Positions 16,098 to 64,000 of a stretch of DNA of 64,000 bases are shown here, piece after piece; position 1 is the stretch's first letter, and every line of letters begins with the position of its first letter. The stretch comes from Tridacna crocea (Eukaryota; Mollusca; Bivalvia; Cardiida; Cardiidae). Both the position numbers and the translations under genes were made by a program. The DNA lies in NCBI GenBank assembly GCA_943736015.1, contig OX031061.1:63618192-63682191 (forward strand), in the 5' to 3' direction. The notes beneath the pieces were generated by a model. The model was not told the origin of the DNA and ran no database searches. It saw nothing but the letters and a program-made list of their open reading frames with translations.

Positions 16098-16481
16098 TTT
16101 ACGGTAGTGGACCCGTAATAGAAAACAGCTATTTCCACCTTGATATTATCCCACAAAATTTGCTATCTTTAAAAATTAGTATTATTGTACTACTTTAACC
16201 TGGACACTTCCCCCCCCTTTTTTTTTTTTTATTTCCTTCTTAGAATTATCATTCACAAATCTAAAACCAATACACTGTCATTACAAAGGGAGATAATAAT
16301 TACCTCCCTTTCCTGGAAAGTAACAAAAGTATCAACAGATACTTTCAAGATAGAAATCAAAGGAATTTCTGGTCGGTTAAAAATGTGCAAAGGTATTATA
16401 TCTTTATAAATCCGTATTAATCAACTATCAAGATATTTTACTCAATGTTGCACTAGAAGTGTTACGGGTCTACTGCCTTAA
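16098..16481 (+). mobile_element. Family D MITE nested in T-related LTR
   Basis: From TTTACGGTAGTGGACCCGTAA to GTTACGGGTCTACTGCCTTAA. Contains AAAGGGAGATAATAATTACC. Confidence 0.86.
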
Positions 16482-16546
16482 ATACAATACCTAACAACTG
16501 GGTTAGGAAGATATCTCTTTAGCTCAGTGGTTATGGTATTGGTCTT

Positions 16547-16776
16547 TTAACCCATTACCACACAATCCCTACTTTTGACGCCTCTGAGAAAGAAGCCTTT
16601 TGAAAACACTGTGGGAAAAAGGAGAAAATGCTGGTAACCAGCATTTTCTCCTTTTCCCACAGTGTTTTCTACCCTTCCCAGAACAAATTTCAAATTTTCA
16701 GTCACTTCTATTTTGTCATCTGCAAATGCTTTCAATTTGGACCAGTCTAAAATATTGTCGTTTGGTAATGGGTTAA
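16547..16776 (-). mobile_element. Family A MITE, C-variant hairpin, flanked by 72-bp duplication
   Basis: TTAA 16547-16550 and 16773-16776. Hairpin outer arms read CACTGTGGG and CCCACAGTG, a paired change relative to CATTGTGGG/CCCACAATG. Confidence 0.9.
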
Positions 16777-17061
16777 ATATAATACCTAACAACTGGGTTA
16801 GGGAAATATCTCTTTAGCTCAGTGGTTATGGTATTGGTCTTTTAAACCTCGAAAAAGAAAAAAAGATCTTGTCCGCATGGGCTCGAATCCCGCAACATGC
16901 AGTTTATTTTTGCAGCTACGCATTTGCTGCGAACTTTTATATTCGTAAGCGTCTTGATTCATAAAACTCCAGTGCCAATACAGTTTTAATCCTTGGTGAG
17001 AGGTTAAAGTATATAATCTAATCGCTCTAATCTTTTATAACAACGAAGGTAAATTTTCGTT

Positions 17062-18630: not shown

Positions 18631-18646
18631 CTCTAAATAGACATAT

Positions 18647-18732
18647 GGTCTGTTTACTTCAAAAACCTCGTAACTACAGATTGAAACAAGTTATAGTTAC
18701 GAGGTTTTTGACGTAAACCGAAGATATACTTA
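18647..18732. mobile_element. Family L short foldback
   Basis: Arms AAAAACCTCGTAACTACAG and TATAGTTACGAGGTTTTTG, with GTTTAC/GTAAAC outside. About 85 bp. Copies at 46020 and 50160. Confidence 0.8.
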
Positions 18733-31069: not shown

Positions 31070-31523
31070 TCTTACGAACAGAGTCCGTAACAAAGAAACA
31101 AATGAACGAATGCATGGCAAAAATAAGGGAACGGACTGGATTCGCACCCTAGAACGCCCAGACGAAAGGCCCGCACCTTAACCAATGAGCCAAAGAACTA
31201 TCTCTCTGGGTCAATTGTCAGGTATTGTATTTAGATCAGGACGAAGCCATGCACAAAGTGGTTTCCCGTCACGCTCTCTTAATGTCATCACTTATTGATG
31301 ACTCAAAGCCTTATTAGGCAGAAAGTCCGTTTTTGGACAACAAATGGGATTAATGACTCAATGGCCAATCCCGGACGACCCCCACCCCCATCTTACGAAC
31401 AAATTCCGTTACAAAGAAACAAACTAACAAATGCACGGCAGAAATAAGGAACCGGGCAAGATTCGAACTCTAGAACACTTGGACGAAAGGCCAATTACTC
31501 AACCACTGAACTGAAGAGGTATC
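31070..31523 (-). mobile_element. TRIM family T, copy 1, one LTR truncated
   Basis: On the minus strand: truncated 5' LTR (31523-31391), PBS region disturbed by inserted C/A bases (31368-31390), internal segment (GGCCATTGAGTC... to the PPT side), 3' LTR (31272-31070) ending CGTAAG. Both LTRs keep a B-box-like complement (GGATTCGCACCC; AAGATTCGAACTC) and an A-box-like region. Older and more diverged than the copy at 46481. Confidence 0.78.
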
Positions 31524-31574
31524 TGATTAGCTCAGTGGTAACCTGGTTTCAAAATCCTTCTCTTTCAGGGGTTT

Positions 31575-45666: not shown

Positions 45667-46019
45667 AAGCTGGCGAAATTTCCGACGGCAAAACCTTTAT
45701 TTAAACGCCACAGTTGCATTTTGTTGCAGAATGTAACCGCCAGATTCCTTTACGCTTGCAAAGTAAATAATGAAAGTATTTTGTAATATTTTCAGTGTTT
45801 TTCCATGCAGTCGTGATTGACGGCAAAACACAAACAAACGACATAAGTCGCTTTAAAAAACAAAAAACATCATTTCGAGTGCCTATTTCTGAAACTATCT
45901 TTGAATACCGACCCTCTGGTCTACGGGTAATGTTTTGGTTACTTTGAATGGCTGCCTAGTATACAGATTTTACTGCGTGCGAAATGATGTTTTTGTGTCT
46001 AATTTTCGGTACTTTACTG
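45667..46019. other. Unassigned stretch
   Basis: No repeat family or coding signal recognised. Confidence 0.35.
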
Positions 46020-46122
46020 TTGTTGAAAACATATATCGTCGGTTTACTTAAAAAACTTCGTAACTACAGCTTGTTTCAAGCTGTAGTTACGAGGTTTTTG
46101 AAGTAAACCCACGATATCAAAA
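46020..46122. mobile_element. Family L short foldback
   Basis: TATCGTCGGTTTACTT ... CTACAGCTTGTTTCAAGCTGTAG (in halves) ... AAGTAAACCCACGATA. Stem of about 40 bases. Confidence 0.82.
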
Positions 46123-46169
46123 GAGCATCTGCCAACAGCTTCCTTTGTCACTGTCTTAAGTATGATTAG

Positions 46170-46250
46170 CTCTTTGCCAGATGACATTGCAATTCAGAAT
46201 TGTCCAAATTGAAAACATTTACATTCAACAGATTAAATTTGGCCCAAAAA
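46170..46250 (+). repeat. Family A left fragment
   Basis: CTCTTTGCCAGATGACATTG, GTCCAAATTGAAAACATTT; cut by family H. Confidence 0.55.
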
Positions 46251-46480
46251 TATATACGTGTGACCCATCACGCAAAAAGGGACCATCTGGGAAGTCTGTA
46301 TATCAATTAGATGAAAACAGATAACGATAGTGCAAGTCAGTGTAAGTTGATAATTCAAGAATGATTGTATAACAAAGTACAGTTGACCACTTTTCATACA
46401 GAAAATGTCATTAAAGCGAAAAGTATCAACCCTGGTCAGCATGCACAATTCGATTCGCGCAGTCTGACCAGAGTTGATAC

Positions 46481-46686
46481 TCTTACGAACGAAGTCCGTA
46501 ACAAAGAAACAAATGAATAAATGCATGGCAGAAATAAGGGTCGGAGCGGGATTCGAACTCCGAACTCCCGGACGCAAAGCCAATACCCTAACCACTGAGC
46601 CAAAGAGATATCTCTCTGACGCAGTAGCCAGGTATTGTATTTAAATCGGGAGTATGCCATGCAGGAAGGAGTGGTCTCCCGTAACA
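46481..46686 (-). repeat. TRIM T 3' LTR
   Basis: 206 bases. Differs from the 5' LTR by G/A at 46491 and by G/A at the base before TCGGAGCGGG. Confidence 0.92.
46540..46615 (-). ncRNA. tRNA-like segment with A and B boxes in TRIM LTR
   Basis: On the minus strand the LTR reads TTTGGCTCAGTGGTTAGGG (A-box-like, consensus TRGCNNAGTGG), then TATTGGCTTTGCGTCCGGG, then GGAGTTCGAATCCCGC (B-box-like, consensus GGTTCGANTCC). Spacing suits an RNA polymerase III type 2 promoter. There is no matching 5' acceptor strand and the T stem is imperfect, so it is a tRNA-derived segment and not a working tRNA gene. The same segment is present in the other LTR (about 46862-46937). Confidence 0.7.
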
Positions 46687-46784
46687 CACCCCCTCTTAAA
46701 GTCATCATTTATTGATGACTCAAAGCCTTATTAGGCAGGAAGTCCGATTTTGGACAACAAATGGGATTAATGGCTCAATGGCCA

Positions 46785-46802
46785 ATCCCGGACGAGCCCC
46801 CA
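46785..46802 (-). other. TRIM T primer-binding site (tRNA-Pro)
   Basis: Minus strand TGGGGGCTCGTCCGGGAT directly abuts the 5' LTR. It is the same 18 bases as the tRNA-Pro PBS known from murine leukaemia virus and equals the PBS at 60924-60941. Confidence 0.9.
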
Positions 46803-47008
46803 TCTTACGAACAAAGTCCGTAACAAAGAAACAAATGAATAAATGCATGGCAGAAATAAGGATCGGAGCGGGATTCGAACTCCGAACTCCCGGACGCAAA
46901 GCCAATACCCTAACCACTGAGCCAAAGAGATATCTCTCTGACGCAGTAGCCAGGTATTGTATTTAAATCGGGAGTATGCCATGCAGGAAGGAGTGGTCTC
47001 CCGTAACA
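46803..47008 (-). repeat. TRIM T 5' LTR
   Basis: 206 bases, starting TGTTACGGGAGACCACTCC on the minus strand, with the same tRNA-like segment as the 3' LTR. Confidence 0.92.
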
Positions 47009-47066
47009 ATACTTTTTGCAGTTCCCAGAAGGTCCCTTTTTTGCTCGATAGGTCACTTTTATTTTG

Positions 47067-47499
47067 GAAAACGGCAAAAAATATTGAGGTGACCTGAATT
47101 GATACTATTATGCAGATGCATTGAGCCGCCATTTTACATGAGTCAGATATTTGTGCAGCAATAGGTTAAAACTTTGTAGCTTCAATCTTGTGGTCATTTC
47201 CAATGACTGAAAACCCCTGTTCTAAATCATGTTTCATAAAAAGGAAGCTGCAGCGAAGGTTGGCTGGTATTAGCGCTTTCAACCCCCTCCCACCCCCGCC
47301 CCTTGTTTTTGCGGGGGAAGGGGTGTTATTCGGTACCCACTAAATAGCCAAATAATCACTTTCTTTTGCTTTCATATGCACTAAAAGAGTCTTGTTTTCA
47401 GGTGAGCAATGTGTTTACCCACATCCACCACCACCTCCACCCCCTGCTTTGCTAACTCCCTACTTTGCAAACACCGATAGTCACAACGTTATTTATGTA
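47067..47499. other. Unassigned stretch
   Basis: C-rich runs (CCCCTCCCACCCCCGCCCC near 47284, CCACCACCTCCACCCCC near 47428); no family recognised. Confidence 0.35.
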
Positions 47500-47950
47500 T
47501 AAATAGAGGATATTTGATATGTTTTTTCGGTGGAAGATCAAAATTTATTTCATCGATTGAGCATCATGGTAATATTTTCACGAGTGGCGCAACCACGAGT
47601 GAAAATATTAGCGATGGTGTTCACGAGATGTGTAACTATTTTATTTATCTCATACTTTTAACCCTGTCTGGGAGAAAGTTTATCAAAATCCAGTACAGTT
47701 CTTTTAAGTTACTCCCCTTGGCGTTCCCCTTCCTCAAAGCAACACATTACAATGTTACGTCAAGCGCGAGAAATGTAAGGTAAATGACGTCATATTTTAA
47801 TCTGGTTGTGAGCCATGCGCATTTTACCTAGCTAACTGAAATATAAAAATAGGTTTCTTCACTGGTCGTAACCATGAAATATCGAAAAATATTTCACCGA
47901 TATTTTTCGATAACCTACAGGAAAGTATGAAATAAATGCATTTATCTGAT
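47500..47950 (+). mobile_element. Family E foldback element
   Basis: GAGGATATTTGATATG, palindrome CATCATGGTAATATTTTCAC / GTGAAAATATTAGCGATGGTG, middle with CTTGGCGTTCCCCTTCC, AATGACGTCATATTT, then TTTACCTAGCTAACTG and CTACAGGAAAG. Confidence 0.8.
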
Positions 47951-50159: not shown

Positions 50160-50252
50160 TAACATAGAACATACCGTCGGTGTGCTTCCGAAACCTCGTA
50201 ACTACGGCTTGTAACAAGCTGTAGTTACGAGGTTTTGGAAGCACACCGACTA
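50160..50252. mobile_element. Family L short foldback
   Basis: CCGTCGGTGTGCTTCCGAAACC / GGTTTTGGAAGCACACCGAC arms: paired changes relative to the GGTTTAC...GTAAACC arms of the other two copies. Confidence 0.82.
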
Positions 50253-50708
50253 TACACTTATTGTGTACTTTATGGCGGTAGTGTGCCTTTAAAATATGAG
50301 CGTTGGTTTTGGCAGCTTTTTTAAAAGGTGGCACTCGTTATTAATTAATCTATCTTTTTTTATTTATTTTCAATAGTTTTCTAGTTTAAAACACATAAAA
50401 CCTAATTCAACAATCCAATAAAAACTAAACCTTTCCATTCCCACTCGGAACTCCTCACGTAAAAATTATCCAATACAAGACTACAACGCATTTACTTCTG
50501 GCAATAGAAATCTATTTTTAGACGCACCTTCTACAACATCATCTGTTTTTATTTGAATTTTTAGCATTTTAGAAATACTAATGTCTGGGTACAATTTTCG
50601 TCTTTTTTTTTTAATATATAATTATTTATTTCATGCTGCTTTTTTTAATCTAGGTATCTGGCTTCTTTTCATTAGACAACTGGGCACTTATATGATCTAT
50701 TTTTTCAG
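50253..50708. other. Unassigned stretch
   Basis: AT-rich; the stretch leading into 50709 ends in a pyrimidine-rich TATTTTTTCAG. Confidence 0.35.
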
Positions 50709-52160: not shown

Positions 52161-52625
52161 ACCGGGCATGATTCGAATTCTGGAACGCCAGAACAAAAGG
52201 CTAATACCTTCACCACGGAGCTAAAGAGATATCTGCCTAATGGAATTGTTAGGTATTAAATCGGGATGAAACCATGCATAAAGGAATGATCTCCCCTAAC
52301 ACACCCCCTATTAAAGTTTTCATTTAATGAGGACTCAAAGCCTTTTCAGACAGAAAGTCCGTTTTTAGACAACAAATGGGACTAATGGCTCGATGGCCAA
52401 TCCCGGACTAGCCCCCATCTTACGAACAAAACACGTAACAAAGAAGCAAATGAAAAAGTTCATGGCAGAAATACAAGGACCGGGTAGGATTCGAACCCTA
52501 GAACGCCCGGACAAAAGGCCAATACCTTAACAACTGAGCTACAGAGATATTTGCCCAAAGCAGTGGTTAGGTATTGTATTTAAATCGGGACGAAGCCATG
52601 CATGAAGGAGTGGTCTCCCGTAACA
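52161..52625 (-). mobile_element. TRIM family T, copy 3, 3' LTR truncated
   Basis: Minus strand: complete 5' LTR (52625-52418) with the clearest B-box of the window (GGGTTCGAATCC, 52488-52499) and an A-box region; PBS 52417-52400 with one mismatch to tRNA-Pro; internal region; PPT-like AATAGGGGGTG; 3' LTR from 52301, cut at about 52161 where family M sequence begins. Confidence 0.85.
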
Positions 52626-60355: not shown

Positions 60356-60652
60356 TGTTATGTACATACCCAGTTATTCCTAGCTTTGTTCATGTATGTA
60401 TCTATTATTGAATGGTTTTCCCCTGTTGCTATTTTTAGAACTGGATTCTCTCTTGTGGAATATTGTGCTGGAAGTTTCCAGAACTTTTTTTACAATCTGA
60501 TTACTAGAAATTATGCAACTGATTTTAACATGAATTTTCTGGAAGTTTCTCTGTTATTATAGAAGGAAAAGCTTTTTTACATATCAGTGTTCACTAGTTA
60601 ATACATGATTGCCAGACTACAGTGGGGATTATTTTGTGTTTGTGTCATAATT

Positions 60653-60752
60653 AGTGCTTGGATTACATTCAGTTTGGATTCGGATCAGACTAGACTAAAG
60701 TGAGGATTACTTCGTGTGCTTGGATTACATTCAGTTTGGATCAGGATCAGAC
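60653..60752 (+). repeat. Direct repeat inside LTR
   Basis: GTGCTTGGATTACATTCAGT followed by TTGGAT(T/C)(C/A)GGATCAGACT occurs twice, about 61 bases apart (near 60655 and 60717). Duplicated upstream elements are common in LTR U3 regions; role here unknown. Confidence 0.8.
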
Positions 60753-60850
60753 TGGAATTAAGACTGGAATAATTTGTCTTTTGAATTTAACGTCTAAGGT
60801 ATTGTTTTGTACTATTGTAATATTGTCACTGTTTATTTGATATTTTTGTT

Positions 60851-60856
60851 AATAAA
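60851..60856 (+). terminator. Polyadenylation signal in LTR
   Basis: AATAAA 62 bases before the LTR end, in a T-rich context. A plausible signal for the R/U5 boundary. Confidence 0.6.
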
Positions 60857-60923
60857 TTCTGTTAATTGTTATCGTTTGTTGCTGGCTTCTACTTTCTAGT
60901 TACGCCTGACTCGTAACAGAAAT

Positions 60924-60941
60924 TGGGGGCTCGTCCGGGAT
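60924..60941 (+). other. Primer-binding site, tRNA-Pro
   Basis: TGGGGGCTCGTCCGGGAT, complementary to the 3' end of tRNA-Pro (the same 18 bases as in murine leukaemia virus). Five bases (GAAAT) separate it from the LTR. Confidence 0.9.
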
Positions 60942-61115
60942 TGGAAAATAGACTAACGCATTCGTTTTCCTTTTGGGATTAACCATCGATTGGAAAATAA
61001 GACATAGACGTTTGCTTTTCACAATTTGAATAAAAATCTAATACATCCTGTTAGTCAAAATTACTAATCAGTAATTATAATACAATTTTGTACTTGAATC
61101 CAGCAACAAACAAAC

Positions 61116-64000
61116 ATGTCTTTTGACTTAGATAAATTTACGGCTGAACCGTCTGTGGAGCTATTGAATTTAGGTAAAAAGACTGATTTGCTTAATCTTG
61201 CTAAACACTATGAATTGTCTGAAATAAAATCTTCAATGCGTAAACATGAAATTAGGAACATTTTGGTACAATATTTTGTTGATGAGGAGATTTTCAATGA
61301 AAATGCGCTTTCCCTGATAGTTGAAGTTCAGTCAGTTTCAAGTTCGAAAGAACTTGAATTAAAACTTCAGATCAGACAGTTAGAAATGGAAAGAGAAAGA
61401 GAGAGAGAAGAAAGAGAAATGGAAAGAGAAAGGGAGAGAGCTGAAAGAGAAAGGGAAAGACAGAGAGAAGAAAGAGAAGAGAGAGAGAAGGAGAGAGAAT
61501 TTCAATTAAGAATGAGGGAAATAGAAATGCAAGAAAGAGCAAATCAGCCGAAGCAAAAGATTGAATACAATTTCGATGTTACAAAACATATTAGGCTTGT
61601 TCCTCCATTTCAAGAAAAAGAAGTTGATAAATACTTCCTACACTTTGAAAAAGTTGCAGAAAACTTAAATTGGCCAAGAGAGCACTGGACTTTGCTTCTG
61701 CAAAGTGTTTTGATAGGCAAAGCTCGTGAAATTTATACACAACTAGGTGTTGAACAATGTCATCATTATGAGACTGTTAAAGAACTTATTCTCAAAGGTT
61801 ATGAGCTGGTCCCAGAAGCATATAGACAAAAATTTAGAAATTGTAAGAAAGATTCTAACCAGACTCATGTTGAATTTGCTAGAAACAAAGAACAGTTATT
61901 TGATAGATGGTGCTGTTCTAAGAAAATAGACCAAAATTATGATAAACTAAGACAACTTATGTTAGTTGAAGAATTCAAACGTTGTATTCAATTTGATGTT
62001 AAGACATTCTTAGACGAAAAACAAGTTGAAACTTTAGAAGAAGCAGCTCGTCTGGCTGATAATTACTACCTTACACATAAAGTTTCTTTTATTGCTAAAC
62101 CAAAACCTACTTCCTCACATCCCCAAAATAAATCTATGTCTGGTAATTCATCTGGCATGCCCAGTCAATCAAATACACCCAAACCCAATTCTACTAGTGA
62201 AACCAAAAGTCAATATCCCTTATCTCGACCCACTTGTAACTATTGTAAGAAACCTGGTCACCTTGTTTCTGAATGTTTGAAATTAAAAAGGAAGTTAGAA
62301 AGTGATGAAGCCAAACCAACAGGGCTCACCACTCTTAGGCCAAGGCCACAGTCTTCTACTAAAACCAATACAATTGACATAGTCACAAAACCCAAGTCTG
62401 ATTCTACTATGGAGATTTTTGAACCATTTATGTTGAATGGTTTTGTATCACTTTCAGGTGATAATTGCCCACCTACCCCTATTAAAATTCTAAGAGACAC
62501 AGGAGCTTCTCAATCTCTTATTTTGGCAGATATACTGCCTTTTTCTGAGAAGACTTCTTCCGGTACTAGTGTCCTTATTCAGGGTGTAGAGTGTGGAACT
62601 GTTAATATCCCTCTCCATCATGTTAATTTGTCATCAGATTTGGTTACTGGGCCTGTGGTTATTGGTATTAAACCTTCCTTACCATTTAAAGGTGTCCATT
62701 TACTGCTAGGCAATGACTTAGCTGGAGATAAGGTTGTGGTAAATCCACTTGTAACTGACACACCAAATATAGGTCAAACAGATGACCCTATCGAGCAGGA
62801 AATTCCTGACTTGTATCCTTCTTGTGCAGTTACCCGAGCTATGGCTAAAAAGGCCATTTTGAAAAACTCAAACTCTGACATTGACTTGACAGATACTTTT
62901 ATCGGTCAATATTTTAATAATGAGATTAAAAAGTCTCTTGATCCCAGTTTGTCTGATACTCAAACAGACTCGTCAATGTCTTGTCATTCACCACCAAGGT
63001 CTATTGACCAAGGTCACGACACGCTGTCAAAGTCACAGCTTATCCAGGAACAGCAAACTGATCCTGAGATTTCAAAATTAATTTTTAGGGCTTTACCTGA
63101 AGATGAAATTTCACAGGTCCCAATGTGTTACTATATAAAGCATGGGATTCTTATGAGAAAATGGCGACCATTTGATGTCCCAGCTGATGATGAATGGGCT
63201 GTTTACCACCAAATTGTGGTTCCAAAGTCATATCGTCATGAAATACTAAGTATAGCCCATGAAAGTCCTATGTCAGGTCATTTAGGTATAAACAAGACCT
63301 ATCACAAAATTATTACTCATTTTTATTGGCCTGGTCTCAAATCAGATGTCTCTAAATATTGTAAAACTTGCCATACATGTCAAATGGTAGGTAAGCCCAA
63401 CCAAACCATTCCCAAAGCTCAATTACAACCTATTCCTGCTTTTGATGAACCTTTCAGTAGGATACTTATAGATTGTGTTGGTCCTTTACCTCGAACCAAG
63501 TCAGGAAATGAGTATCTCTTAACAATTATGTGTACTTCTACACGTTTTCCTGAAGCTATTTCTTTAAGGAACATCAAAACAAAGTCCATAGTCAAAGCTC
63601 TTATAAAATTTTTCACATTTGTTGGTCTTCCAAAATCAGTTCAATCTGATCAAGGGTCAAATTTTATGTCTGGTATATTCCAACAGGTTATGCATGAATT
63701 AGGGATCAAGCAATACAGGTCATCCGCCTATCACCCTGAAAGTCAAGGTGCTTTAGAAAGATTTCACCAGACATTAAAAAATATGATAAGATCATATTGC
63801 TTTGACACTGAAAAAGATTGGGATGAGGGCATCCATTTGTTACTATTTGCAGTCAGAGAATCTGTAGAAGAATCTCTTGGTTTCAGTCCTTTTGAATTAG
63901 TTTTTGGCCATTCTGTTCGTGGACCTTTAAAACTTTTGAAAGAGAAATTTCTCTCAAATGATGAAACACCCTTGAATTTACTACAGTATGTTTCTGACTT
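61116..64000 (+). CDS. Gag-Pol polyprotein (Gmr1-like), partial at 3' end
   Basis: One frame, ATG at 61116 (first in-frame start after the leader), at least 961 codons without a stop. Residues about 77-143 are a highly charged ER/EE-rich coiled coil. About 150-320 form a capsid-like region whose end (from PEAYRQKFRN, residue 233, to EEAARLADNYY) resembles the SCAN domain. A zinc knuckle CNYCKKPGHLVSEC (C374, C377, H382, C387) ends Gag. Protease active site DTGAS is at 461-465, with LLLGNDLAG near 530. A linker with AVTRAMAKKA follows, then the integrase N-terminal zinc finger (H715, H722, C752, C755) and catalytic D786, D845, E881 (35 residues between the last two). No YXDD reverse transcriptase motif lies between protease and integrase. 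Gag and Pol are fused in one frame, so no frameshift is needed. Codon use is AT-rich like its surroundings. Confidence 0.92.
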   Translation, partial: MSFDLDKFTAEPSVELLNLGKKTDLLNLAKHYELSEIKSSMRKHEIRNILVQYFVDEEIFNENALSLIVEVQSVSSSKELELKLQIRQLEMEREREREEREMERERERAERERERQREEREEREKEREFQLRMREIEMQERANQPKQKIEYNFDVTKHIRLVPPFQEKEVDKYFLHFEKVAENLNWPREHWTLLLQSVLIGKAREIYTQLGVEQCHHYETVKELILKGYELVPEAYRQKFRNCKKDSNQTHVEFARNKEQLFDRWCCSKKIDQNYDKLRQLMLVEEFKRCIQFDVKTFLDEKQVETLEEAARLADNYYLTHKVSFIAKPKPTSSHPQNKSMSGNSSGMPSQSNTPKPNSTSETKSQYPLSRPTCNYCKKPGHLVSECLKLKRKLESDEAKPTGLTTLRPRPQSSTKTNTIDIVTKPKSDSTMEIFEPFMLNGFVSLSGDNCPPTPIKILRDTGASQSLILADILPFSEKTSSGTSVLIQGVECGTVNIPLHHVNLSSDLVTGPVVIGIKPSLPFKGVHLLLGNDLAGDKVVVNPLVTDTPNIGQTDDPIEQEIPDLYPSCAVTRAMAKKAILKNSNSDIDLTDTFIGQYFNNEIKKSLDPSLSDTQTDSSMSCHSPPRSIDQGHDTLSKSQLIQEQQTDPEISKLIFRALPEDEISQVPMCYYIKHGILMRKWRPFDVPADDEWAVYHQIVVPKSYRHEILSIAHESPMSGHLGINKTYHKIITHFYWPGLKSDVSKYCKTCHTCQMVGKPNQTIPKAQLQPIPAFDEPFSRILIDCVGPLPRTKSGNEYLLTIMCTSTRFPEAISLRNIKTKSIVKALIKFFTFVGLPKSVQSDQGSNFMSGIFQQVMHELGIKQYRSSAYHPESQGALERFHQTLKNMIRSYCFDTEKDWDEGIHLLLFAVRESVEESLGFSPFELVFGHSVRGPLKLLKEKFLSNDETPLNLLQYVSD

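Follow-up and report, generated by a model that had tools for sequence, protein, structure and literature searches.

A probable Helenus-type miniature LTR retrotransposon of the giant clam Tridacna crocea whose LTRs carry tRNA-like promoter motifs

Structure and insertion site of the element

The window analyzed here is a stretch of 64,000 nucleotides from contig OX031061.1 of the Tridacna crocea assembly GCA_943736015.1 (positions 63,618,192 to 63,682,191). At 46481..47008, on the minus strand, it contains a complete miniature LTR retrotransposon (TRIM) of 528 bp. Read along the minus strand, the order is 5' LTR, primer binding site (PBS), rest of the core, polypurine tract (PPT), and 3' LTR, and the target-site duplication (TSD) lies on both flanks. 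The features of the element and its immediate surroundings are as follows.

46481..47008, minus strand: probable Helenus-type TRIM, complete, 528 bp, with paired LTRs, PBS, PPT, and TSD
46803..47008, minus strand: 5' LTR, 206 bp, TGTTACG...CGTAAGA
46782..46802, minus strand: tRNA-Pro PBS (18-mer at 46785-46802) plus 3 more bases common to a nearby Gypsy element
46687..46697, minus strand: polypurine tract AAGAGGGGGTG, adjoining the 3' LTR
46481..46686, minus strand: 3' LTR, 206 bp, with 2 differences from the 5' LTR
46477..46480, no strand: left TSD, ATAC
47009..47012, no strand: right TSD, ATAC
46259..46480, no strand: older interspersed repeat with a palindrome, split by the TRIM and resuming at 47009 (empty-site alignment; copies near 13.6, 32.9, and 34.1 kb)

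The original prediction of a complete retroviral layout within 528 bases, comprising two LTRs, a PBS, a PPT, and a target duplication, was confirmed. The LTRs are 206-bp direct repeats (46481-46686 and 46803-47008) at an offset of 322, and they are 99% identical, the two differences that had been counted falling at 46491 and 46540. They enclose a core of 116 bp, and the PBS abuts the 5' LTR, as had been proposed, with a gap of 0 nt. The 18-mer of the PBS is a tRNA-Pro sequence that matches published tRNA-Pro primers and a murine leukaemia virus PBS; it is contained in primers that target the 3' end of human tRNA-Pro (PMC10993922, PMC12217144), and the same 18-mer is the tRNA-Pro PBS of the virus (PMC1769482). 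The TRIM is noncoding; the reading frames of at least 95 codons that lie over it (132 and 135 codons, stop to stop) extend into flanking DNA.

The TSD consists of the 4-bp sequence ATAC, as predicted, and the extra T that had been allowed for is not part of it. When the flanks are joined minus one ATAC, they align across the junction to three uninterrupted repeat copies in the window, from which they differ slightly at the insertion point itself. The alignment of the empty site with these three paralogous repeats shows that the element truly inserted here and duplicated 4 bp of its target. The window also holds a family of near-perfect palindromic repeats (46031-46120, 18643-18728, and 50171-50254), which we guess are probably MITEs; the copy at 46031 gave weak matches to miRNA families in Rfam, below the cutoff.

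Three further relatives of the element lie in the window.

31070..31524, minus strand: second TRIM copy, with truncation of one LTR; identity of about 80% in the LTRs and 93% in the core
52170..52625, minus strand: third TRIM copy, with truncation of one LTR; identity of 82% and 72% in the LTRs and 88% in the core
16459..16950, plus strand: related LTR of another subfamily, with a palindromic insert splitting it; limits set by eye

The copies at 31070 and 52170 are older than the copy at 46481. In the related tRNA-like LTR at 16459-16950, the promoter part is present twice, flanking the palindromic insert on either side.

Copies across the genome

The assembly that was searched comprises 1,048,827,098 bases in 31 contigs. 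Its mitochondrial contig (29,009 bp) codes for a COX1 that, among the 8,000 scored candidates with the most words in common, was 94% identical (over 86% of the query) to an entry named Tridacna derasa and 80% identical to the second, named Lymnocardiinae, in good agreement with the genus Tridacna. An exact 30-nt sequence spanning the LTR-PBS junction occurred 1,656 times, with 807 matches forward and 849 in reverse, against 0 for the reversed pattern used as a control. In a search with the LTR, the best 40 of 1,469 candidates were scored and gave 30 loci, which form a best-match and thus biased sample. Parts of 17 distinct full elements, the window copy included, accounted for 26 of these loci; the others were a single solo LTR flanked by a TSD and three loci with a one-sided core that lack a second LTR at the exact distance. 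An exact 4-bp TSD was present in 16 of the 17 best full copies and a 5-bp match in the other, and the LTR pair was identical in 10/17.

A second sample was taken in genome order and consisted of the 20 loci carrying the first 21 junctions listed, at which the PBS is present by selection. The original prediction would have failed had genome copies lacked paired LTRs, PBS, and PPT, which was not the case in the copies examined: paired LTRs and a core were found at 18 of the 20 loci, the other two having one truncated LTR (L063) and one partial LTR (L076), and the exact PPT-LTR junction was present in 17 of the 18 paired copies. The TSD was exact in 16 of these 18 (the exceptions being L065 and L075), and the LTR pair of one locus, L071, differed at 12 sites. 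With its more than 1,600 exact junctions, numerous identical LTR pairs, and 4-bp TSDs of varied sequence, this TRIM family shows recent movement by the integrase route. Two of the 18 loci (L077 and L078) are LTR-core-LTR-core-LTR arrays, in each of which a single 4-bp TSD encloses the whole array.

In another search, made with the older LTR at 31070, the best 40 of 1,974 candidates were scored. The 116-bp core used as a query gave no match in the genome, in a search that passes over very common words. The comparisons with older LTR copies given below use 39 copies of 79 to 95% identity, counted after the removal of identical copies and of matches that covered fewer than 190 positions of the LTR.

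Promoter motifs in the LTRs

In the sense orientation, the A box of each window LTR starts at LTR position 85 and the B box at 128, and a TATA-like sequence lies upstream.

46960..46967, minus strand: TATA-like TTTAAATA, 5' LTR, with its start 43 nt upstream of the A box; putative function
46914..46924, minus strand: A box TGGCTCAGTGG, 5' LTR (relaxed motif)
46871..46881, minus strand: B box AGTTCGAATCC, 5' LTR, starting 43 nt past the A-box start (relaxed motif)
46638..46645, minus strand: TATA-like TTTAAATA, 3' LTR copy
46592..46602, minus strand: A box, 3' LTR (relaxed motif)
46549..46559, minus strand: B box, 3' LTR (relaxed motif)

The claim that each LTR carries A- and B-box-like sequences in tRNA order stands by relaxed motifs, whereas the strict motifs TRGCNNARYNNGG and GGTTCGANNCC have no match in the element. 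With the relaxed motifs and a spacing of 30 to 95 nt, A+B pairs were found only in the two LTRs on both strands of the 64 kb and in 0/20 Markov simulations, statistics that are partly fitted to the sequence since the relaxed motifs were adopted after the strict ones had failed. The window A box reads TGGCT..T-GG, and the window B box, AGTTC, has one mismatch to the consensus GGTTC. The commonest B box among the 39 older LTR copies is of the GGTTC form and contains GGTTCGAATCC, and the window B box AGTTCGAATCC therefore looks derived.

The numbers of A- and B-box matches (relaxed motifs) equaled the number of LTRs in 18/18 paired genome-order copies, so that the tRNA-like part is not, in the copies examined, a chance SINE insertion confined to one of them. 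Among the 39 older LTR copies, an A box by the relaxed motif was present in 31 and a B box in 25. Variation per site in these copies was 0.035 and 0.042 in the two box stretches (0.038 together) versus 0.077 for the LTR as a whole. Among random 11-mer pairs, about 2.5% were as conserved as the A and B boxes, a slight underestimate because overlapping pairs that had been skipped were still counted in the denominator. The TATA-like TTTAAATA sits in another of the less variable blocks of the LTR.

The search for a tRNA cloverleaf gave 0 matches with ARAGORN in the whole window, no tRNA at an E value of ≤1 with Rfam over 46001-47500, and no cloverleaf at an E value of ≤10 with Rfam at three further loci (L001, L034, and L049). 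The related LTR near 16.8 kb gave a subthreshold tRNA match of 16.1 bits (cutoff, 29; E value, 2.1). Many other weak Rfam matches, mostly to miRNA families and all under the family cutoffs, were disregarded. The LTR also contains an imperfect palindrome (about 75%) at sense positions of about 50 to 106, corresponding to window positions 46903-46959 and 46581-46637, which has its center at AGAGATATCTCT and overlaps with the A box. A match to this palindrome is also given, on both strands, by the related LTR near 16.5 kb.

Absence of a Pol III stop from the sense strand

The sense strand of the LTR plus core comprises 322 unique nucleotides and contains 106 T residues, twelve TTT, and zero TTTT, the Pol III stop. 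In 3,000 dinucleotide-preserving shuffles of the LTR plus core, TTTT was absent from 0.5%. The corresponding values were 2.4% for the LTR alone and 41% for the core alone, and the signal thus lies mainly in the LTR, the core giving none. Of the 528-bp stretches that make up the window, 0.5% are free of TTTT and 0.3% are free of AAAA. In the full copies, which are close relatives and not independent tests, sense-strand TTTT was absent from 17/17 of the best-match sample (the window copy among them) and 18/18 of the genome-order sample, and at least one AAAA was present in 17/17 and 17/18, respectively. TTTT was present in 16 and AAAA in 3 of the 39 older LTR copies. The presence of TTTT or the loss of a box in these older copies can be explained by decay, yet it lends no support. 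As for polyadenylation signals, neither AATAAA nor ATTAAA is present on the LTR sense strand, and the sole match in the element, at its position 296, belongs to the core.

From the promoter motifs and the missing stop, we infer that the TRIM is transcribed by Pol III. The TATA-like box could serve Pol II instead.

A candidate helper element

The PBS 18-mer of the TRIM occurs exactly only twice in the window, and the second occurrence, at 60924, belongs to a larger element.

60356..64000, plus strand: candidate helper, a Gmr1-like Gypsy with a 5' LTR (60356-60918), PBS from 60924, gag, and integrase; continues past the window (to L062:4330)

The stretch common to the TRIM and this Gypsy at the PBS covers 21/21 nt. 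Their LTR ends are alike (TGTTACG...CGTAAGA in the TRIM and TGTTATG...CGTAACA in the Gypsy), and so are their PPTs (TTTAAGAGGGGGTG and TTTAAGGGGGGAAG); the gap between LTR and PBS is 5 nt in the Gypsy, and there is none in the TRIM. The Gypsy LTR contains 17 TTTT, one AATAAA, and no box match. Its exact LTR-PBS junction occurs 647 times in the genome. The copy at 60356 is young, its 563-bp LTR having 1 difference from the partner LTR beyond the window, and AGAA stands at both outer ends as a 4-bp TSD.

Pfam matches in the window were to SCAN (gag), Integrase_H2C2, and rve, and those beyond the window were to RVT_1 and RNase H; the integrase is thus ahead of the reverse transcriptase, and about 1.45 kb without a long open reading frame lies between the two frames. 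An integrase that precedes reverse transcriptase and RNase H is the order given for the Gmr1 clade (PMC8220671, PMC6238403), and SCAN has been described as homologous to Gmr1-like gag (PMC4592553). The Gypsy at 60356 resembles Gmr1 in having its integrase upstream of the reverse transcriptase and a SCAN-like gag, and its placement is by domain order and domains. We regard it as a good candidate for the helper of the TRIM but not a proven one, since the TRIM and Gypsy LTRs share short termini only and one tRNA-Pro Gypsy was compared.

Comparison with known TRIMs

An animal TRIM with a tRNA-like LTR had been expected to be an unreported parallel to Cassandra, but such elements were already described by Kojima in 2024 as Helenus (TRIMp3), TRIMs with tRNA-derived LTR sequence (PMC10886601). 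Helenus elements are noncoding, have two LTRs and a length of 311 to 1263 bp, and occur in fungi, six animal phyla, and a plant (Selaginella); their A box is TRGCY, YGG and their B box is GGTTC. Those of animals have 4-bp TSDs and are thought to be mobilized by Gypsy elements. Primers of the bivalve families include tRNA-Pro, Gypsy-13_CGi is a tRNA-Pro Gypsy, and the Helenus family LTR-11_DR has a high copy number and tandem arrays. The tRNA cloverleaf is recognizable in some families only, and the bivalve families in the table of that paper are from Pteriomorphia only. According to the same author, the Pol III function of Helenus is still without experimental validation (PMC10886601).

The giant-clam TRIM shares with Helenus its size, the A and B boxes in the LTRs, the PBS and PPT, the 4-bp TSD, and the tRNA-Pro PBS, a likeness that is drawn from the features described for Helenus. 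It also shows the Helenus feature of a PBS region held in common with an autonomous Gypsy (21/21 nt), and the window copy has no cloverleaf recognizable by ARAGORN or Rfam. The host is a heterodont, in contrast to the Pteriomorphia of the 2024 survey; Tridacna belongs to the Cardiidae within Imparidentia, outside Pteriomorphia (lineage of T. derasa).

The plant TRIM Cassandra has a Pol III-type promoter inside its LTRs, as the giant-clam TRIM has in the form of a motif. However, Cassandra is 5S derived, whereas the giant-clam element is tRNA-like, with no Rfam match to 5S rRNA at an E value of ≤1 over 46001-47500. The Cassandra transcript is said to end within the 5S part of the 3' LTR (introduction of PMC10886601), whereas the giant-clam TRIM has no TTTT on its sense strand. 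Among bivalve elements, biv-TRIM (Satovic 2019, PMC6934838) has repeats of 202 to 218 bp, a core of 77 to 80 bp, a PPT of GGGGAGA in most cases, and no canonical PBS identified, and the cardiid Cerastoderma edule is also among its hosts; the main text of that paper makes no use of the word "polymerase." The giant-clam TRIM is similar to biv-TRIM in host class and in the range of LTR length but differs in its 116-bp core, its PPT AAGAGGGGGTG, and its tRNA-Pro PBS.

Interpretation and proposed mechanism

The element is very probably a Helenus-type TRIM (TRIMp3), that is, a noncoding LTR retrotransposon with an internal tRNA-like Pol III promoter motif in its LTRs, for which a Pol III start, read-through, tRNA-Pro priming, and a Gypsy helper are the predicted steps of the cycle. 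It is less likely, though worth serious consideration, that the element is an ordinary Pol II TRIM carrying the A- and B-box-like sequence as a functionless passenger, a decayed SINE. Such an origin would account for the missing cloverleaf and the mismatch in the window B box, and the TATA-like TTTAAATA in a less variable LTR block would suit a Pol II promoter. However, a functionless passenger is at odds with box matches that equal the LTR count in all 18 paired sample copies and with boxes that vary less than the LTR as a whole, and the LTR sense strand, without AATAAA or ATTAAA, differs from the Gypsy LTR with its AATAAA and 17 TTTT.

A tRNA-derived SINE in chance tandem, rather than an LTR element, is very improbable. 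The A and B boxes, the short length, and the three LTR units in a row at 2/18 full loci are what a tandem SINE might show, but the conserved core between the repeats opens with a tRNA-Pro PBS and closes with a PPT, and 4-bp TSDs adjoin fixed LTR ends in nearly all copies, no A-rich tail being seen. More improbable still is a chance repeat, an assembly duplication, or a one-off SINE insertion in a single LTR, a reading with nothing found in its favor, given 1,656 exact junctions versus 0 for the reversed-pattern control, flanks and TSDs that differ among the copies examined, and an empty site matched by three paralogous repeats. The single SINE insertion, the tandem SINE, and the assembly artifact were accordingly rejected on the basis of the genome copies, the PBS/PPT core, the TSDs, and the empty site.

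Under the Helenus-type reading, we hypothesize that transcription by Pol III begins close to the TATA-like/A-box region in the 5' LTR and continues through the core, the read-through being suggested by the absence of a TTTT stop from the sense strand. The transcript would end past the promoter of the 3' LTR, probably at the first T-run of the flanking DNA. A tRNA-Pro molecule would then prime at the PBS, strong-stop DNA would transfer to the 3' LTR, and a tRNA-Pro-using Gypsy would supply the reverse transcriptase and integrase that finish the cycle, the best candidate seen being the Gmr1-like Gypsy at 60356.

A more comprehensive scheme, which we put forward tentatively and hold to be somewhat doubtful, joins these elements. 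The TRIM may run a retroviral-type cycle on Pol III read-through RNA from an LTR promoter without a terminator, with selection keeping TTTT off the sense strand, the RNA ending in flanking DNA, and strand transfer proceeding via an internal R region. It may be moved by the Gmr1-like Gypsy, whose Pol II LTR shares with it only the termini, PBS, and PPT, and its origin in bivalves may be older than, or separate from, that of the elements in Pteriomorphia.

Significance

The giant-clam TRIM extends the range of Helenus from the Pteriomorphia reported in 2024 (PMC10886601) to a heterodont bivalve. The literature on Helenus or TRIMp3 that we found from 2024 onward consists of that paper and a meeting report citing it, and the strings "TTTT," "termination," and "Gmr1" are absent from the main text of the paper (PMC10886601). 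The heterodont host, the absence of TTTT from the sense strand, and the candidate Gmr1-like Gypsy helper may be new. It is possible that tRNA-like LTRs of this kind are miscalled as SINEs in the repeat annotation of giant clams. The naming of Gmr1-like Gypsy provides a specific helper family for testing, and the identical LTR pairs together with the 1,656 junctions make the giant clam a practical system in which to test whether Pol III RNA feeds LTR retrotransposition.
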